DNA from: Gemmatimonadota bacterium
GTDB taxonomy: Bacteria > Gemmatimonadota > Gemmatimonadetes > Palauibacterales > Palauibacteraceae
Assembly: GCA_029861425.1 (NCBI GenBank)
Contig: JAOTZH010000022.1
Location: forward strand, 1-32,665
Direction of reading: 5' to 3'
DNA length: 32,665 bases
The notes beneath the pieces are model-generated. The model ran no database searches. It was not told the DNA's origin and saw only the letters and a list, made by a program, of their open reading frames with translations. The translations under genes and the position numbers were made by a program. This document shows positions 12,073 to 19,001 of the stretch, piece after piece (positions within the stretch are counted from its first letter, which is position 1; the number at the start of each line of letters is the position of its first letter).

Positions 12073-13404
12073 TCAGCTCCCTGTTATCTCCTCTGCGTGG
12101 GCTTCGATCTTCAACGACAGATCGCGGACCGCCGACAGAACCTTCGGTTCATCGAGAGTCGTGAGCATGCGGTCGCGCATCACCCAGCGTCCGTCGATCA
12201 GCACGGACCGCACGTCGTCCCGGCCGATCGTGTAGACGAGGTGAGCGTACGGATCGTACATCGGGAGCAGGTGAGGCCGATCCAGATCGACGAGGATCAC
12301 GTCCGCGCGCTTCCCCGGCTCGACTGATCCGATGCGATCGCCGAGTCCGAGGGCCTTCGCTCCGACCGATGTAACCATGCGGACGATCTCGACGGCCGGC
12401 GTTAGGGTCGGGTCCTGCCGGGCGCCACGCTGCAGCAGTCCGGCGAACCGCATGGCCGTCCACATGTCCAGGTCGTTCGAGCTCACCGGTCCGTCGGTGC
12501 CCACCAGGACGGGGATTCCATCCTCGAGCATCCGGGCGACGGGCGCGATCCCCGATCCGAGCTTGAGATTGGACAGCGGGTTGTGGAGCACGCCGGTCCC
12601 GGTCCGGACGAGACGGGCGAAATCGTCGTCGGTGAGGTGCACGCAGTGAGCGAGCACGGTGGGGCCGTCGAGGATCCCGAGCTCATCGAGGTGGGCTACG
12701 GGCGTGTGGCCGAACCGGTCGCGCGTCGAGTCGACCTCGGTCGCCGTCTCCGAACAGTGCGTGTGGAAGAGCGCGTCATGTCTGTCTGCCAGCGCCCGGG
12801 CGGCGGTCATCATTTCGGGGGATACCGTGAGCGCGTTGTGCGGCTCCACGCAGGCCGTGACAAGGGGCTCCCCGGCGAAGCGCTCGAACCAGGCCTCCCC
12901 CACCGCGAGCCGGTCGGGGTTGTCGATGCCGTCCGGTCCCTCGAAGTCGAAGAAGATCGGGCCGGTAACGACCCTGAAGCCCGCGTCCACGCTCGCTTCC
13001 GCCGCGGCCTCGGGGAACCAGAACATGTCGAGTCCACAGGTAGTCCCGGACCGGATCATCTCGGCCAGTGCGAGCTGGACGCCGAGCCGGACGTTGTCGT
13101 GGGTGACGAAAGCGCGCTCCGACATCCACAGCCGTTCGAGCCAGGGTTCGAGCGGCAGGTCCTCCACCAGGCTTCGAAACAGCGAGTCTCCCATGTGGAC
13201 ATGGCCGTTCACGAGGCCCGGCATGAGCAGTTGCCCGGATGCATCGACGGTTTCCGCAGCATCTACCGCGGAGAGCTCGGAGCGCGAACCGACCGCGGCG
13301 ATCGCCCCACCCGTAATGGCGATCGCCCCATCCTCGATGATTCGTTCCTCGCGATCCATCGAGACGATTGTCGGACCCAGAATCAGCAGTTCCGCGTCAG
13401 CCAC
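12073..13404 (-). CDS. mtaD: Amidohydrolase, 5-methylthioadenosine/S-adenosylhomocysteine deaminase type
   Basis: The protein has 443 residues from a GTG at 13404-13402, preceded by GGAG at 7-nt spacing inside the end of the phosphorylase gene, giving an 8-nt overlap. Metal-site motifs of the MtaD/ATZ-TRZ amidohydrolases are all present: GLVNGHVH (H68, H70), HTHCSE (H216 metal, E219 catalytic), LAHCVH (H253) and VGTDGPVSSNDLDMW (D304, with the family's SNNDLDM-like loop). The C-terminus has GSVEPGKRADVILVDLD. Characterised relatives deaminate MTA, SAH or other 5'-modified adenosines to inosine derivatives in the cytoplasm. The overlapping nucleoside phosphorylase would then split the product. 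Exact substrate preference cannot be read; related guanine- or triazine-type hydrolases are less likely. Confidence 0.85.
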   Translation of the reverse strand: MADAELLILGPTIVSMDREERIIEDGAIAITGGAIAAVGSRSELSAVDAAETVDASGQLLMPGLVNGHVHMGDSLFRSLVEDLPLEPWLERLWMSERAFVTHDNVRLGVQLALAEMIRSGTTCGLDMFWFPEAAAEASVDAGFRVVTGPIFFDFEGPDGIDNPDRLAVGEAWFERFAGEPLVTACVEPHNALTVSPEMMTAARALADRHDALFHTHCSETATEVDSTRDRFGHTPVAHLDELGILDGPTVLAHCVHLTDDDFARLVRTGTGVLHNPLSNLKLGSGIAPVARMLEDGIPVLVGTDGPVSSNDLDMWTAMRFAGLLQRGARQDPTLTPAVEIVRMVTSVGAKALGLGDRIGSVEPGKRADVILVDLDRPHLLPMYDPYAHLVYTIGRDDVRSVLIDGRWVMRDRMLTTLDEPKVLSAVRDLSLKIEAHAEEITGS

Positions 13405-14176
13405 TCGTGTTCTCCGGAGTAGTAGGGGCTTCGCCCCCGAGCGCCGCCGCCGAATCGACGGCGATCTCCAGCATATCCGACACCCCCGAGGCCACGACCT
13501 GGCGGTGCGGGTCATAGTCGGACATGTCGGCGCTCCGGGTGTCCACCAGGTTTCCGTCGACGGTCAGTATCCCGCCGGCTCGCACGCTGTTCATGCTCGC
13601 GATCACGAACAGGGCGGACATCTCCATTTCGACGGCCATCGCACCATGGTCGGTGTAGGACTGCCAGCGGGGCGGGAATGCCCCAGGGTAGAAGATGGCC
13701 TCCGTGACGACGAGTCCCTCCCGACAGGATCGACCGCGCGCTTCGGCCGACCGGACCAGCGATCGCGTCACATCGCGATCCGCGACGGCGGGGTAGGCGG
13801 CTCCGATCAACTGGTCGCTCGCGCCGTCCTCACGAACCGCCGCCGTGGCGATCAGGACCTCTCCGTCCTGGATGCCGAAGGAGATCGCCCCGCACGTGCC
13901 GGCCCGGATCAGGGTGCCGACTCCCGCCTTGATCAGCTCGGCGAAGCACACGAGCGCCCCCGAGGCTCCGACCCCGTGAGAAGCCACGCAGATGCGCACG
14001 CCGTCGCGCGAGCCGACGAGCGTCAGGTATTCCCGGTTGGAGGCGAGCTCTACCGTTTCGTCGAGAAGGGTAGCGGTCTCGCGGGCCCGTTCGGGATCTC
14101 CCACGACGATCGCGACATCAGGGACGTCCGCGGGGCGCACGCCCAAAATTGGAAGAGCTTGGTCCTCGGGTGGCAC
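13397..14176 (-). CDS. Nucleoside phosphorylase, PNP/UDP family
   Basis: The protein has 259 residues from a GTG at 14176-14174, with GGAG six bases upstream. Family features are the phosphate-binding GDPERA (26-31), RAGTCGAI (91-98), FYPGAFPP near 162-169 and the ribose-binding Glu-Met-Glu in AVEMEMSALF (E183, M184, E185). Length and motif order match uridine phosphorylase and trimeric/hexameric purine phosphorylases (NP-I family). It overlaps the MTA/SAH-type deaminase by 8 nt, so both should be made together. The natural reading is phosphorolysis of the inosine or methylthioinosine that the deaminase produces. A plain uridine phosphorylase role remains possible. Confidence 0.87.
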   Translation of the reverse strand: MPPEDQALPILGVRPADVPDVAIVVGDPERARETATLLDETVELASNREYLTLVGSRDGVRICVASHGVGASGALVCFAELIKAGVGTLIRAGTCGAISFGIQDGEVLIATAAVREDGASDQLIGAAYPAVADRDVTRSLVRSAEARGRSCREGLVVTEAIFYPGAFPPRWQSYTDHGAMAVEMEMSALFVIASMNSVRAGGILTVDGNLVDTRSADMSDYDPHRQVVASGVSDMLEIAVDSAAALGGEAPTTPENTSG

Positions 14177-14264: not shown

Positions 14265-16256
14265 TCAGCCCCCGATGGGCATCGGGCAGTCCGTCAGCTC
14301 GTAGTGAGTGCGTGCGACGGCGAACTGACGGAGTGCCGCCCGGTAGGTCCGGGCGGTCGTGGCCTCGACACGGTCCGCGATGTCGGCGTGTCGTCTCTCG
14401 AGCCGTTGGCTCCCCTCGAGGACCCCACGGTACGCGAGATTCAACGGATTACACGTGGTGAGTTCCTCGTCGAACTCTTTTCGAAGCTCCTCGTATCGGT
14501 CGACTTCCACCCGGAAGATCGTCAGGGCGTTGTCGAACGCCGACACAGCCGGATCCTGGACCTGGAAGGAGTCCAGCGTGGGAGCCGCGACGATGTCCGG
14601 GGGCAGAGGAGACGGGATCGGCGCCGAGTCGTTGGCGTCGGCCCCGGCTGTCGGGGACTCGGCCTCCCCGTCCGCCAAGACATTCCGCGGGTCGAGTGCG
14701 CCGATGGCATCCCCTGCGGCCTCCTCGGGTGGGGTGGCACCGTCGCTCGTCGAGGTGGATACGTCTTCCTCGTTGGAAACCCCCTCGCCGCGCCCCTCGA
14801 TCACCGGCTCGTCGCTGGCGGGCTCGACCGTCTCGGTGCCCGAATCGACCGGCTCCCCGGGCTGCCCGAACAGATCGTTCGGCGAGAGCGAGAGCCCGGC
14901 GACCGCCGACTCGCCGTTCGACTCCGCCCCGTCGGCCGGAGCTCCGACCATCCGGGTGCCGACCCACCCTGCTCCCGCCAGCACCACCACGCCAGCGGCT
15001 GCGGCGACCATCTTCATGGCGGGGAGACGGCTCCGCCTCCGCGCCCCTCCCACGAGCGGTTTGGCCGCGGAGACCCCGGAACTGATCGGGATGACGCCAC
15101 CCGTCTCCTCCGTCCGCTTTCCCTCGCCCCCCGTCGGAGCGGCCTCCCGGGTGTCGATCACGGTCAACGACGGCCGGGTGTCCTCAGGGTCCACGTCCGA
15201 TGCGACGCCGTCATCAGCGGCCGGTGCCGGAGCGGGGGCGTCGGACCTGGCCTCCGGCCTCTCGTGCGCCGGCGCACCCAGCTCGCTGATCGTGCCCGGC
15301 CCGAGCGATCGGCCGACCGCCATCAACGACCGCTGGATCTGGACCTTCTCCCACTCGGCGTCGACTTCGTCCGTCGACGCCGGCTCTGCGGTTTCGGGTG
15401 TCTCCCGTCCCCGGTCCGGTGGCAGCTCGAGCAACGGAAGTCCGTCGATCGCCGGGCTCATCCGCTCGGGCGGCAACGGAGTCGATTCCACCTCGTCCAG
15501 GATGTCGGGAGCCGTCTGATCTCGATCCCTCGCGATGCTTGGCACTGGAGGCTCCGCAAGATCCCGAATGGTGGCGACGGTCACGGGAGCCTCCGTCTCT
15601 CCCGGCCGCACGACGCGGGTCTCGCTCTGATAGTTGGCCCACGTGAGAAGAGTCCGGCGCGCCGTCGAGCCCGGACGCGGGTCCTCCGCCGCGAGCTCGT
15701 AGAAGGGGGTGTACACCGAGCGGCTGAGCCCTTCAGGGTCCGTCCTCTGGAAGACGCCTCCCGCCAGACGATCGCTGGCCCCGGCCAGGATCAAGGCGAA
15801 CGCCCATGGCTCGGGGAACTCTCGCTCGTGGAACGTCGCCTCATCCGGGGCGAGGTAGAGCCCCGCTTGATGGTGCGTGCGATACCACCCGATGATCGAC
15901 GCATCGCCGACCGACGTCCGGGTGCGGGACACGGCCTCCACGAGGTCGTCCACGGCGGCGTCTTCGGCCACGGGGCTCCTGGAGGCGACTACCCGATCGA
16001 GGCGAGCCCAGCGGCGCGCGCACGTCGGATCCTCGAAGACCGTGCCCACGATCGCCCCGAACACGGGCGAAGCCGGGGCAGAGGCAAGCTGCGCATGAAT
16101 CTCGCCCAGTACCTGCTGGGTGAAGACGAGATCCACGATGGTGGTCGGCGCCGTCCCGCCCGAGAAGCGTCGCGGCACCCACTGGATGCAGTCGACGTAC
16201 GGAGGAGCGGACTGCGAGATCCCCCTCTGATCGGCCCTGTTCTCTGATTCGGACAC
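14265..16256 (-). CDS. Membrane protein with degenerate JAB/MPN (JAMM-like) domain
   Basis: The protein has 663 residues from a GTG at 16256. An ATG at 16346 would add 30 residues, but that stretch has A/T-rich third positions and no ribosome site. An MPN domain near residues 38-200 aligns over its full length with the neighbouring JAMM protein (VFTQQVLGEIHAQL, GWYRTHHQAGLYLAPDE, REFPEPWAFAL, GGVFQR). Catalytic positions are altered: Glu to Pro, first His to Arg (R126), Ser to Ala (A136), Asp to Glu (E139); only H128 remains. Then come a long Pro/Ala/acidic linker, RRRSR and one transmembrane helix (about 417-436). Another acidic linker leads to a helical C-terminal domain with two cysteines (C602, C657), presumably periplasmic. 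It is probably a non-catalytic partner of its paralogue. No name can be assigned. Confidence 0.75.
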   Translation of the reverse strand: MSESENRADQRGISQSAPPYVDCIQWVPRRFSGGTAPTTIVDLVFTQQVLGEIHAQLASAPASPVFGAIVGTVFEDPTCARRWARLDRVVASRSPVAEDAAVDDLVEAVSRTRTSVGDASIIGWYRTHHQAGLYLAPDEATFHEREFPEPWAFALILAGASDRLAGGVFQRTDPEGLSRSVYTPFYELAAEDPRPGSTARRTLLTWANYQSETRVVRPGETEAPVTVATIRDLAEPPVPSIARDRDQTAPDILDEVESTPLPPERMSPAIDGLPLLELPPDRGRETPETAEPASTDEVDAEWEKVQIQRSLMAVGRSLGPGTISELGAPAHERPEARSDAPAPAPAADDGVASDVDPEDTRPSLTVIDTREAAPTGGEGKRTEETGGVIPISSGVSAAKPLVGGARRRSRLPAMKMVAAAAGVVVLAGAGWVGTRMVGAPADGAESNGESAVAGLSLSPNDLFGQPGEPVDSGTETVEPASDEPVIEGRGEGVSNEEDVSTSTSDGATPPEEAAGDAIGALDPRNVLADGEAESPTAGADANDSAPIPSPLPPDIVAAPTLDSFQVQDPAVSAFDNALTIFRVEVDRYEELRKEFDEELTTCNPLNLAYRGVLEGSQRLERRHADIADRVEATTARTYRAALRQFAVARTHYELTDCPMPIGG

Positions 16257-16389
16257 GCAATGCGCAACTTTTTCCGGAGTCTCTGAATTTCGTGAAGAGA
16301 CCGCCAGGCCGTGCCCTCCCGGGTCGAACGACCGAACCCCTGTCATCAGCGGGAGTTACGGTGCCGACGATCGGAGTGGCCTGCACACG

Positions 16390-16410
16390 CCCTCTCCTGT
16401 CCGAAGAGGG
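16390..16410 (-). terminator. Weak hairpin between the two JAMM-domain genes
   Basis: CCCTCT (16390-16395) and AGAGGG (16405-16410) form a perfect 6-bp stem with a 9-nt loop. It lies 20 nt past the stop of the upstream gene on the minus strand. It may attenuate rather than end transcription into the paralogue. There is no T-run. Confidence 0.25.
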
Positions 16411-16429
16411 AAGGGGGCAAGACTGGTGC

Positions 16430-18715
16430 TCAGGAAGGAGGGAGAGCTCCCGCGGACGGATCCTGCGGCGCCATCCCGGGGGGAAACTCACAGTCCGACA
16501 CGGCGAAGCGTCCGCGGGCGGCCACGAACTCGGCGTCGAGGCCGGCGAACCGGTCGCCCAGCTCGGGGGCCGTGGCGACGTAGGACCCGAGCGTTGAATG
16601 CGCAGCGGCCAGCGTCTCGAGGCTCGAACCGAGCCCGGCACAGTCCGTCTGGCCCAGCCTGAAGGCGACCATCCCCTGGCGAAACGTCTGCAGCGCCGTG
16701 AGGAACTGATCCGCGAGGGTGATGAACTCGGGCGTCGGTGGCGCCACGGTGGGCGGGGCGGCCACCGGCCGGTCGGGCGCGCGAGCCACGTCGCCGCCAG
16801 TGAAGAACACCGTTCGCACGACCAATACGGCCAGGATGAGCCCCGCGGCGACCAGGGCGCGCCGGATCTGCGTCTTCGTCGGTCGCCATCCCGTGTCTTC
16901 CGCGAGTATAACGACAGGAATGGCTGCTTCCGGATCGGTGTCCGGAGCGTAGGAGGGTGTCACGTAGGTAGGGCCCCGTGCGCCGGCCGGTCTGGGGCCG
17001 GTGGGTGCCGTGGACGCCGGTGCAGATTCCGCCGTCTGCCGGGTGGCGCTCGCCCTGGCCTCTTCGACCGCCTCCTCGCCCTCGCCAGCTTCCTCCGTCG
17101 GCTCGGCCGCGGGCTCCCGGGTCCCCTCGGCCGCGGACACGTCGGTCGCGGCGTCTTCCTCTGCTACGCTTTCGGGCTCCGGATCGACCTTCGCTTCCTC
17201 CTCACCCGAGGCGCGGGCGGCGAGCGTGTCGCCGATCAGCCCGAGAAGCCAATCCATCGACCCGGAGCCGTCCACTTCGGAGGGCTCCGGCTCGAAGGTC
17301 GGGACAAGCTCGAAACGTGATTGTGACCTCTCCGGCGGCGTCGCGACGGCATCTCCGGATCCCCCGTCGTCAGCCTGAGCCGTGGCCTCCGCCTCGTCGT
17401 CCCGACTCACGGGGCCTTCGTCGGCCTCGGTCTCGAACGGATGCGGCCCCCAGACCGCCTCCTTGAAGTCGGAGCTGTACCAGGCCCCGCCCTCCGCACC
17501 TTCCTCCGTCGGCTCGGCGGTTGCCGGCTCCTCGGGAGGTGCCTCGTCGCTCGCCTGCCGGGATGCAGGTGGCTTCTTCTTGCGCGCGGCGGTCTTCTTC
17601 TTCCTTCGCTTCCTCGCAGACTCCTCGTCGTCGAGCGAGAACTCAGACTCGAAAACGACCGGGTCCTTTTGCAGACGCACGGCGTCGGCGAAGTCGTCCG
17701 CGGCTAGCGGGGCGTCGTCTGGCCGGCCGGGTCCGGCACGCTTCTCGGAAGTCTCCGGACGCCAGGAACGTCCTCCCAGGGAGCCCTTTCGTTTCGGCTG
17801 CGCACCTGGAGCGACGGATCCGCCCTGGGTTGGCAGGTCGACGCCTTCTCCGTGGGCTTTCGCCTTCCACTTCTTCTGTCTGGTCGACGCCCCGGGCCAA
17901 TTCGCCTTGATCACGCTGACCGCTTCACCCGCCCTGTAGTTCTGCCAGTCCACGACCGACGGTCGAAGCCCTTTTAGGAGCTTTGCGTCCAGCTCGACGA
18001 TCTCGTGGAACGGCGCCAGCCCCTTTCGAAACAGCCGGGCGCGGCGGCTCCGCTGGATAAACCCTCCGATGATGCCGCGCGACGAGGAGGCGATGACCAG
18101 CGCGCAGTGCCATGGCTCGGGGAAGAACTCTTCCTGCAGGTGGAGATCCCACTCCGAGAGCCGGAGTCCGAGCACACCGTGGCGGTGATACCAGCCCAGC
18201 ACCTCTCCACGACGATGCCGCGCCTCCCGGGTCGCGGCCACCCACGCGTGGCGGAACCGGTCGAACTCGTTTGCGGGCGGGAGGTCCTGTGTCTCCCGCC
18301 TTACCGAGTCGATCACGATGTACGGCGCCTCGGCCCAGGGGCAGTAGGCGACCTGGCCGATCAGGAATCCGAAGGGCTCGCCGCTCGTGGCCGTTATCAG
18401 GTGCTGTCGTACCTCCGACAACACCGACTGGGAGACGAATAGCTCGTAGTTCTTGTCGACGGCGCGGGCGTCTTCCTGACCAGCGGGCGCCCAGGCGATC
18501 GACCGCGAGTAGGGCTTCGGTCGCTTGCGGAACGGGAGCTTGTCCGGCCACTCACGTGGCAGGGTCGGCTCGGGTGTCTCCAACATGTGAGCTTCGGCGC
18601 CGTCGGGACGACGACTGAAAAGTGCCGCGACGACGTCGCTGGCTCTCTTGAAGCTGGCTTCCACCGATCCACTCCGCGAACGGACGCTGGGGGGGAGTCG
18701 TTCGTCGCCCGTCAT
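16430..18715 (-). CDS. Membrane-anchored JAMM (JAB1/MPN) metalloprotease-domain protein
   Basis: The protein has 761 residues from the ATG at 18715-18713. The open frame continues into the antisense of a tRNA, so longer starts are rejected. The MPN domain (about 90-265) has a complete JAMM signature: E113 in SGEPFG, then H177 and H179 in GWYHRHG, seven residues, S187, two residues, D190. This is the zinc-isopeptidase/peptidase signature of Rpn11, CSN5 and bacterial JAB proteins. A very basic patch (RKRRKKK, AARKKK, about 368-381) and a roughly 200-residue Glu/Ala/Pro linker follow. After TQIRR comes one transmembrane helix (about 618-638), then a C-terminal helical domain with C692 and C742, probably periplasmic. 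The topology puts the JAMM domain in the cytoplasm. The substrate is unknown; no ubiquitin-like, E1 or E2 gene is visible nearby. Confidence 0.82.
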   Translation of the reverse strand: MTGDERLPPSVRSRSGSVEASFKRASDVVAALFSRRPDGAEAHMLETPEPTLPREWPDKLPFRKRPKPYSRSIAWAPAGQEDARAVDKNYELFVSQSVLSEVRQHLITATSGEPFGFLIGQVAYCPWAEAPYIVIDSVRRETQDLPPANEFDRFRHAWVAATREARHRRGEVLGWYHRHGVLGLRLSEWDLHLQEEFFPEPWHCALVIASSSRGIIGGFIQRSRRARLFRKGLAPFHEIVELDAKLLKGLRPSVVDWQNYRAGEAVSVIKANWPGASTRQKKWKAKAHGEGVDLPTQGGSVAPGAQPKRKGSLGGRSWRPETSEKRAGPGRPDDAPLAADDFADAVRLQKDPVVFESEFSLDDEESARKRRKKKTAARKKKPPASRQASDEAPPEEPATAEPTEEGAEGGAWYSSDFKEAVWGPHPFETEADEGPVSRDDEAEATAQADDGGSGDAVATPPERSQSRFELVPTFEPEPSEVDGSGSMDWLLGLIGDTLAARASGEEEAKVDPEPESVAEEDAATDVSAAEGTREPAAEPTEEAGEGEEAVEEARASATRQTAESAPASTAPTGPRPAGARGPTYVTPSYAPDTDPEAAIPVVILAEDTGWRPTKTQIRRALVAAGLILAVLVVRTVFFTGGDVARAPDRPVAAPPTVAPPTPEFITLADQFLTALQTFRQGMVAFRLGQTDCAGLGSSLETLAAAHSTLGSYVATAPELGDRFAGLDAEFVAARGRFAVSDCEFPPGMAPQDPSAGALPPS

Positions 18716-18841: not shown

Positions 18842-18915
18842 GGCCCCGTAGCTCAGGTGGATAGAGCGCGGGATTCCTAATCCCGAGGCCGCAGGTTCGA
18901 GTCCTGCCGGGGTCA
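18842..18915 (+). tRNA. tRNA-Arg (anticodon CCT)
   Basis: This is a full cloverleaf. The acceptor stem GGCCCCG/CGGGGTC (one G-T pair) spans 18842-18848 and 18908-18914. The D arm is GCTC...GAGC. The anticodon stem CGGGA/TCCCG has loop TTCCTAA, giving anticodon CCT (reads AGG). The variable loop is AGGCC, and the T arm GCAGG/CCTGC has loop TTCGAGT. The discriminator is A18915, and CCA is not encoded. It stands alone between two minus-strand genes. No integrase or direct-repeat attachment site is seen beside it. Confidence 0.95.
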
Positions 18916-19001
18916 TTCCTACGACACATGGGGTCGACTCGCATCAGCGAGGAAGCAGGATGTCGGATCCGGTCCCCCCACCCGTCGCCTCGAGGGCGCG
19001 A

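Follow-up and report, generated by a model that had tools for sequence, protein, structure and literature searches.

Tandem MPN genes with an intact and a degenerate JAMM site in Gemmatimonadota, and the membrane-anchored family to which they belong

The DNA analysed here, called the window, is a stretch of 32,665 nucleotides that makes up one entire contig of a Gemmatimonadota MAG (G000). On its minus strand, positions 14265-18715 hold two open frames in tandem, B followed by A, each encoding an MPN protein. The features of the locus are as follows.

18842..18915, plus strand: tRNA-Arg(cct), upstream of B and bounding the B frame (ARAGORN)
16430..18715, minus strand: gene B, 761 aa, full JAMM set (EHHSD), single membrane helix; open frame with gene-like codon use (model m0a5bfb819a04)
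17924..18463, minus strand: MPN domain of B (profile A1, E 6.5e-64)
18110..18196, minus strand: 29-residue core GWYHRH...FPEPW of B, holding HxH, S and D (from the sequence)
16790..16864, minus strand: membrane helix of B (hydropathy 2.52; model helix 614-639)
16490..16732, minus strand: three-helix domain at the C-terminus of B, containing Cys 692 and Cys 742 (pLDDT mostly about 90-97)
14265..16346, minus strand: gene A, MPN protein with a broken active site (PRHAE); open frame (model md939e92e0926)
15618..16151, minus strand: MPN domain of A (profile A1, E 7.7e-55)
15804..15890, minus strand: degenerate 29-residue core GWYRTH...FPEPW of A (from the sequence)
14943..15017, minus strand: membrane helix of A (hydropathy 1.82)
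14286..14552, minus strand: three-helix domain at the C-terminus of A, containing Cys 602 and Cys 657 (pLDDT about 89-97)
13397..14140, minus strand: phosphorylase-superfamily gene, next downstream of A (PF01048)

The start of B is most likely the ATG at 18715, and this fits an alignment with the orthologue of genome G004, which extends upstream of the next ATG (18586). A longer frame starting at 18916 was rejected, as it would read through the tRNA-Arg gene; because this gene occupies 18842-18915, B has to start at or after 18841. For A, the GTG at 16256 (663 aa) may be used instead of the ATG at 16346 (693 aa). That A is a decaying pseudogene was ruled out, the frame being open in both G000 and G004. 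Downstream of A, the phosphorylase-superfamily gene is overlapped by a few bases by an amidohydrolase gene (12073-13404, minus strand). These two were considered as parts of the same system and rejected, since genome G012 carries both together without A or B; the phosphorylase-superfamily gene thus probably lies outside the A/B system. A promoter scan gave 0 promoter-like signals, and a terminator scan gave 2 terminator-like signals on the plus strand against 2.0 expected.

Profile and fold comparisons were used for assigning the two proteins. The MPN domains of A and B are 29% identical over 174 aligned residues (E 6e-22). A genus-free profile, built from 27 of the 32 rows of the family profile A1 after the 5 rows of the window's genus had been dropped, gives 170.0 bits for B and 137.7 bits for A, where the best of 2000 shuffled copies reaches 7.9 bits. 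Profile A1 itself (32 family members) matches Rpn11 in PDB at E 1.7e-8, and also CSN5 and BRCC36. The AlphaFold models of A and B likewise match Rpn11, BRCC36 and CSN5 in PDB, the top Foldseek match being Rpn11 4o8x for A (E 4.8e-8) and BRCC36 5cw4 for B (E 6.5e-8). Block pLDDT is mostly 85-96 in the MPN part of both models; each model has more than 300 residues with pLDDT under 50, the MPN and Cys domains being good. By sequence profile and predicted fold, A and B are members of the MPN/JAMM superfamily.

Curated families capture this relationship weakly. Prok-JAB (PF14464) and JAB (PF01398) matches cover the MPN stretch of A and B below the cut-offs: B reaches 15.5 bits for PF14464 (cut-off 25) and 13.9 for PF01398 (cut-off 22.5), and A reaches 11.4 bits against a gathering cut-off of 22.5. 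Among the family members, 29 of 32 match JAB at E <= 1, and the PF01398 cut-off is passed by 3 of 9 relatives scanned full length. In NCBIfam neither A nor B has a match up to E 0.1, and other family members have weak, sub-cut-off matches only.

The residue set of JAMM/MPN+ metalloproteases consists of E, HxH, S and D. The position of the Glu was checked against Rpn11 via a profile alignment, and in the columns of the family alignment B reads E, H, H, S, D while A reads P, R, H, A, E, so that B carries the full set and A one residue out of five. The initial annotation had described an ungapped 29-residue core, running from GWY to FPEPW in both proteins, and the changes Glu to Pro, His to Arg, Ser to Ala and Asp to Glu in A; the alignment reproduces all of these, and 13 of the 29 core residues are identical. 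The orthologues in G004 read EHHSD for B and SRHSE for A. Judged by these residues, B is classed as MPN+ and A as MPN-, which makes A a predicted pseudoenzyme, and B may still be an enzyme. The window's genome also encodes a third paralogue with MPN domain, membrane helix and Cys residues (L059, contig C251, 2793-4121, plus strand), with the site DRRFE; it sits behind an acyl-CoA oxidase-like gene.

A and B share the same order of parts: MPN domain, disordered linker, one membrane helix, and a C-terminal domain that carries a Cys pair and that the models of A and B alike show as a bundle of three helices. Matching whole architectures had been proposed for the two proteins, and this holds for the order but not for the spacing, because about 130 residues separate the membrane helix from the Cys domain in A and about 20 in B. 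The two Cys after the helix are 50 apart in B and 55 apart in A. The linker, which had been called acidic, is only mildly so (D+E 20% in B and 19% in A, against K+R 12% and 11%, respectively). The positive charges that immediately precede the helix point to an MPN domain in the cytosol and a Cys domain in the periplasm. In the family at large, counted on 83 complete frames with 12 truncated frames set aside, a membrane helix follows the MPN domain in 73, and at least two Cys follow that helix in 69, mostly 54-56 apart and at the extreme C-terminus. The helix of A in G004 falls below the hydropathy cut used in this count.

The distribution of the family was determined at three levels. Within the window's genus, 2 of 17 genomes (G000 and G004) carry A and B, in the same tandem and the same order; the other 15 lack both, and no genome among the 17 has just one of the two. 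In the window's family, 19 of 35 genomes have an MPN match. The phylum sample comprised 395 genomes taken evenly out of a larger group, and a profile search at E <= 1e-10 gave matches in 51 of these, covering 20 of 138 genera. Together with 4 genomes from a separate set this amounts to 95 copies; a weak match in G022 (E 7e-4) was excluded from the copy counts, and for one frame with two matches (L117) the entire span was used. For counts of pairing, G228, which has an MPN domain of another type, was excluded, leaving 54 genomes and 94 copies. A search of public genomes for relatives of B gave 25 loci: 16 from Gemmatimonadota/Gemmatimonadales, 3 from Chloroflexi/Anaerolineales, 4 from Lokiarchaea, 1 from 'Candidatus Benthicola marisminoris' and 1 from an 'uncultured bacterium'.

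The 54 genomes fall into 22 with a single copy and 32 with several. Some of the single-copy genomes are incomplete, and in G241 the contig ends right behind the MPN copy; in genus g16, all 7 of 7 genomes are single-copy at a completeness of 81-99%. Among the 32 multi-copy genomes, HxH and D are kept in some copies but not in others in 16, in all copies in 11 and in none in 5. A full JAMM copy together with a broken one is found in 3 of the 54 (G000, G004 and G025). Two MPN genes lie in one locus in 8 genomes (G000, G004, five of genus g60, and G184), and they are directly adjacent, with no gene between, in G000, G004, G232 and G184; the adjacent pair of G184 has one member with the zinc ligands kept and one broken, and in G232 both are kept. 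In most two-copy genomes outside genera g1, g60 and g81 the copies lie at separate places.

Across the 95 copies, the site is full in 11, has HxH and D kept with the Glu lost in 49, and has HxH or D broken in 35. One of the 11 full sites is that of G228, a JAMM of another type. On the 94 copies used for pairing, the catalytic Glu is lost in 74 and HxH and D are kept in 59. Catalysis is therefore not the shared function of the family, and most genomes have no standard MPN+ protein among their copies. Genomes of family f7 (G229, G253, G368, G372, G387) have MPN copies in which the Glu and the first His are kept and the second His is Ala; each of them also has a further copy at another place that is more eroded.

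Neighbouring genes were read for the same set of copies, leaving out 6 loci whose MPN gene was missed by the simple gene finder. The gene directly behind 38 of the 95 MPN copies encodes a secreted protein whose N-terminal domain is small and carries two Cys, and which also has Big_1 Ig-like domains. In f1, TPR repeats are added to this partner, and its C-terminal stretch looks like an outer-membrane barrel. The N-terminal domain of the partner (profile A5) turned up in 38 of 395 genomes. Of these, 35 belong to the 51 MPN genomes, where about 5 would be expected (Fisher p 3.4e-34, relatedness ignored); 3 genomes have the partner without an MPN gene, and 16 MPN genomes, G000 and G004 included, are without it. 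Outside the window's genus, the secreted Ig-like Big_1 protein is the closest linked partner of the MPN gene. As G000 and G004 are without it, this family-wide partner does not explain the A/B pair. In genus g60, 4 of 5 genomes have a tandem that reads MPN, partner, MPN, partner, a module in duplicate.

The Glu is kept in 0 of the 38 MPN copies with an adjoining partner gene. A rule by which an adjoining partner goes with Glu loss was nevertheless dropped, being unsupported once relatedness was removed (4 independent pairs, not significant). The wider neighbourhood in f5 was also rejected as a functional context, consisting largely of housekeeping-type genes (pyruvate kinase, dnaX, ybaB, recR, cinA); the Ig-like gene alone accompanies the MPN gene to other places. 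A secreted Big_1 protein at L099 (5738-9746, minus strand), and others similar to it, has a new-looking N-terminal domain (EPLRKTDLIRLL...C...C), a domain shared by ORFs that do not lie near MPN genes (e.g. G020:C135 and G025:C209).

A tree was built from 93 of the 95 copies, 2 being dropped. In the best tree A and B are not sisters: B groups with genus g6 (97/93), and A groups with L059 (94/93, on long branches). A clade of A and B was not rejected (p-AU 0.089), so a local duplication is compatible with the data. Between G000 and G004 the MPN domain is 70% identical for B and 46% for A, and from the sequences A and B appear as long-diverged paralogues. Genus g6, nearest to B by the tree, has no second MPN gene adjoining, and all five JAMM residues are present in 5 of its 8 copies. 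In family f5, a large conserved clade has as its sister (100/98) a small one that is eroded and evolves faster. Genera g2, g4 and g5 likewise have an eroded type of 1400 residues that is sister to a type of 680 residues (98/96); by the best tree, the split into kept and eroded copies therefore arose more than once. On the tree, the state of the zinc ligands must have changed at least 6 times and that of the Glu at least 8 times.

Pairs of an active and an inactive MPN protein are characteristic of eukaryotic complexes, and Rpn11/Rpn8 of the 26S proteasome lid and CSN5/CSN6 are soluble complexes of this kind. A and B resemble them in the MPN fold and in having one member with E, HxH, S and D and one without, and the family's best matches in sequence and fold include Rpn11, the proteasome subunit that cuts ubiquitin. 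The BRCC36-Abraxas/KIAA0157 complexes similarly combine an active MPN with a pseudo-MPN protein, BRCC36 being the top fold match of B. Unlike all of these, A and B are bacterial single-pass membrane proteins with a Cys domain that is probably periplasmic. In contrast to Rpn11/Rpn8, they come without a proteasome or PCI context in what was seen, any dimer of A and B is putative, and their pairing is neither obligate nor phylum-wide.

Prokaryotic MPN proteins differ from the pair in other respects. Prok-JAB families usually have a ubiquitin-like protein and an E1 as neighbours; a Pfam scan of 10 window proteins found no ubiquitin-like protein, E1 or E2. A genome search for E2 gave a match in 0 of 8 genomes, and its controls gave no match either. 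Other Prok-JAB kinds were not found in G000 and G004 and were found in 6 of 8 genomes searched, some of these being members of the A/B family. Caldiarchaeum CsRpn11 and archaeal JAMM1, Rpn11-like MPN+ enzymes that match A and B by fold, are soluble and encoded together with ubiquitin, E1 and E2, unlike A and B; the accessible part of the source also describes archaeal Rpn11 as a homodimer in the crystal and states that a heterodimer arrangement is not known in archaea (PMC6043591). Chloroflexi (L088, L089) and Lokiarchaeota (L091, L092, L094) have tandem MPN genes too; there, unlike in A/B, both members keep E, HxH, S/T and D as judged by eye, and no tail like the Cys domain of the A/B family was noted. 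In the Chloroflexi loci (L088 4667-6406, L089 9365-11234) the first MPN gene has a long N-terminal part that by eye resembles an FHA domain, together with CxxC pairs; the Lokiarchaeota genes (L091 8285-11128, L092 8294-11134, L094 8285-11128) have long, coiled-coil-like C-terminal tails. The accessible part of a 2006 survey of prokaryotic JAB neighbourhoods holds no such protein and no mention of Gemmatimonadota (PMC1779556), and searches of an open-access library gave no description of this membrane MPN family.

The initial annotation had likened A and B to the eukaryotic active/inactive heterodimers and had suggested testing whether the pair stays adjacent across the phylum. The intact B, the broken A and their tandem in G000 and G004 bear out the asymmetry, and an intact and a broken MPN protein encoded together are what Rpn11/Rpn8 would lead one to expect. 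The adjacency also holds in 2 of the 2 genomes of the genus that carry the genes. Constancy of the pair as a unit, which was to be abandoned if genomes with one member were routine, did not survive: 22 of 54 genomes hold a single copy, g16 with 7 of 7 among them. The rule of a phylum-wide pair fails because single copies are routine and most copies are without the Glu. An obligate heterodimer of the Rpn11/Rpn8 type, kept as a unit throughout the phylum, accordingly strikes us as very improbable. The uneven copies in 16 of the 32 multi-copy genomes and the sister clades of f5 speak for it, whereas the 11 genomes with HxH and D in every copy, the 5 with these in none, and the mere 3 of 54 with full and broken copies together speak against it, as does the tandem of g60 (f5), where in 4 of 5 genomes it is the MPN-plus-Ig-like module that looks duplicated, rather than an MPN-MPN unit.

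A more serious competitor, which we would still not bet on, takes A and B as mere neighbouring paralogues that form separate homo-oligomers with tasks of their own, their adjacency being a relic of duplication. It would agree with the A+B clade that the tree test left standing, with the separate location of copies in most two-copy genomes outside g1, g60 and g81 and with the homodimeric archaeal Rpn11 (in the part of PMC6043591 cited above), but the best tree separates A from B, and their gene order has been retained in G004 despite the deep divergence of A. The widespread Glu loss with HxH and D retained, and the at least 8 changes of Glu state, would also suit a family that is non-catalytic throughout, B included, serving as an inner-membrane MPN scaffold in which the complete site of B is a leftover. 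This we consider unlikely, given that the five residues of B are intact in both G000 and G004 at 70% domain identity and that g6 retains all five in 5 of 8 copies.

The reading we prefer, at a probability of roughly 0.55, is a family of single-pass membrane MPN proteins in which B is a putative zinc enzyme and A a pseudoenzyme, the two meeting at the membrane, and which elsewhere serves as a binding module with an Ig-like partner. The proteins would be inner-membrane proteins of Gemmatimonadota, the long disordered linker and the one membrane helix holding the MPN domain in the cytosol and the three-helix Cys-pair domain lying in the periplasm. B, with its complete JAMM site, would most likely be a zinc isopeptidase or peptidase. 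In the window's genus, A and B would be made together and would most likely meet at the membrane. Their contact would be through the MPN domains or through the C-terminal bundles, and A would steer B or hold it in place, in the manner of Rpn8 with Rpn11; direct binding of A to B is a tentative element, which we hold to be somewhat less probable than its opposite. In most of the family, the Glu-less MPN domain is probably a binding module joined to the secreted Ig-like partner. For the window's genus, an active/inactive membrane complex of B and A is a fair hypothesis, resting on the two genomes, G000 and G004, that hold the tandem. A fuller version, in which B cleaves some cytosolic substrate, ubiquitin-like or other, A binds and gates it, and the Cys bundles couple the complex to the state of the envelope, with zinc-site binding modules and an Ig-like envelope partner elsewhere and a recurrent active/eroded split, is speculative and as a whole rather unlikely.

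A better description of the family is one of MPN modules anchored in the membrane, with a few members, B included, that are still equipped to cut. If the pair in the window's genus is what it appears to be, a bacterial membrane-bound complex would be an independent case of the active/inactive MPN design, and it would offer a simple setting in which to ask what role the inactive MPN partner plays. The 49 of 95 copies that have lost the Glu while keeping the zinc ligands would allow a direct test of the purpose of an MPN domain that no longer cuts.
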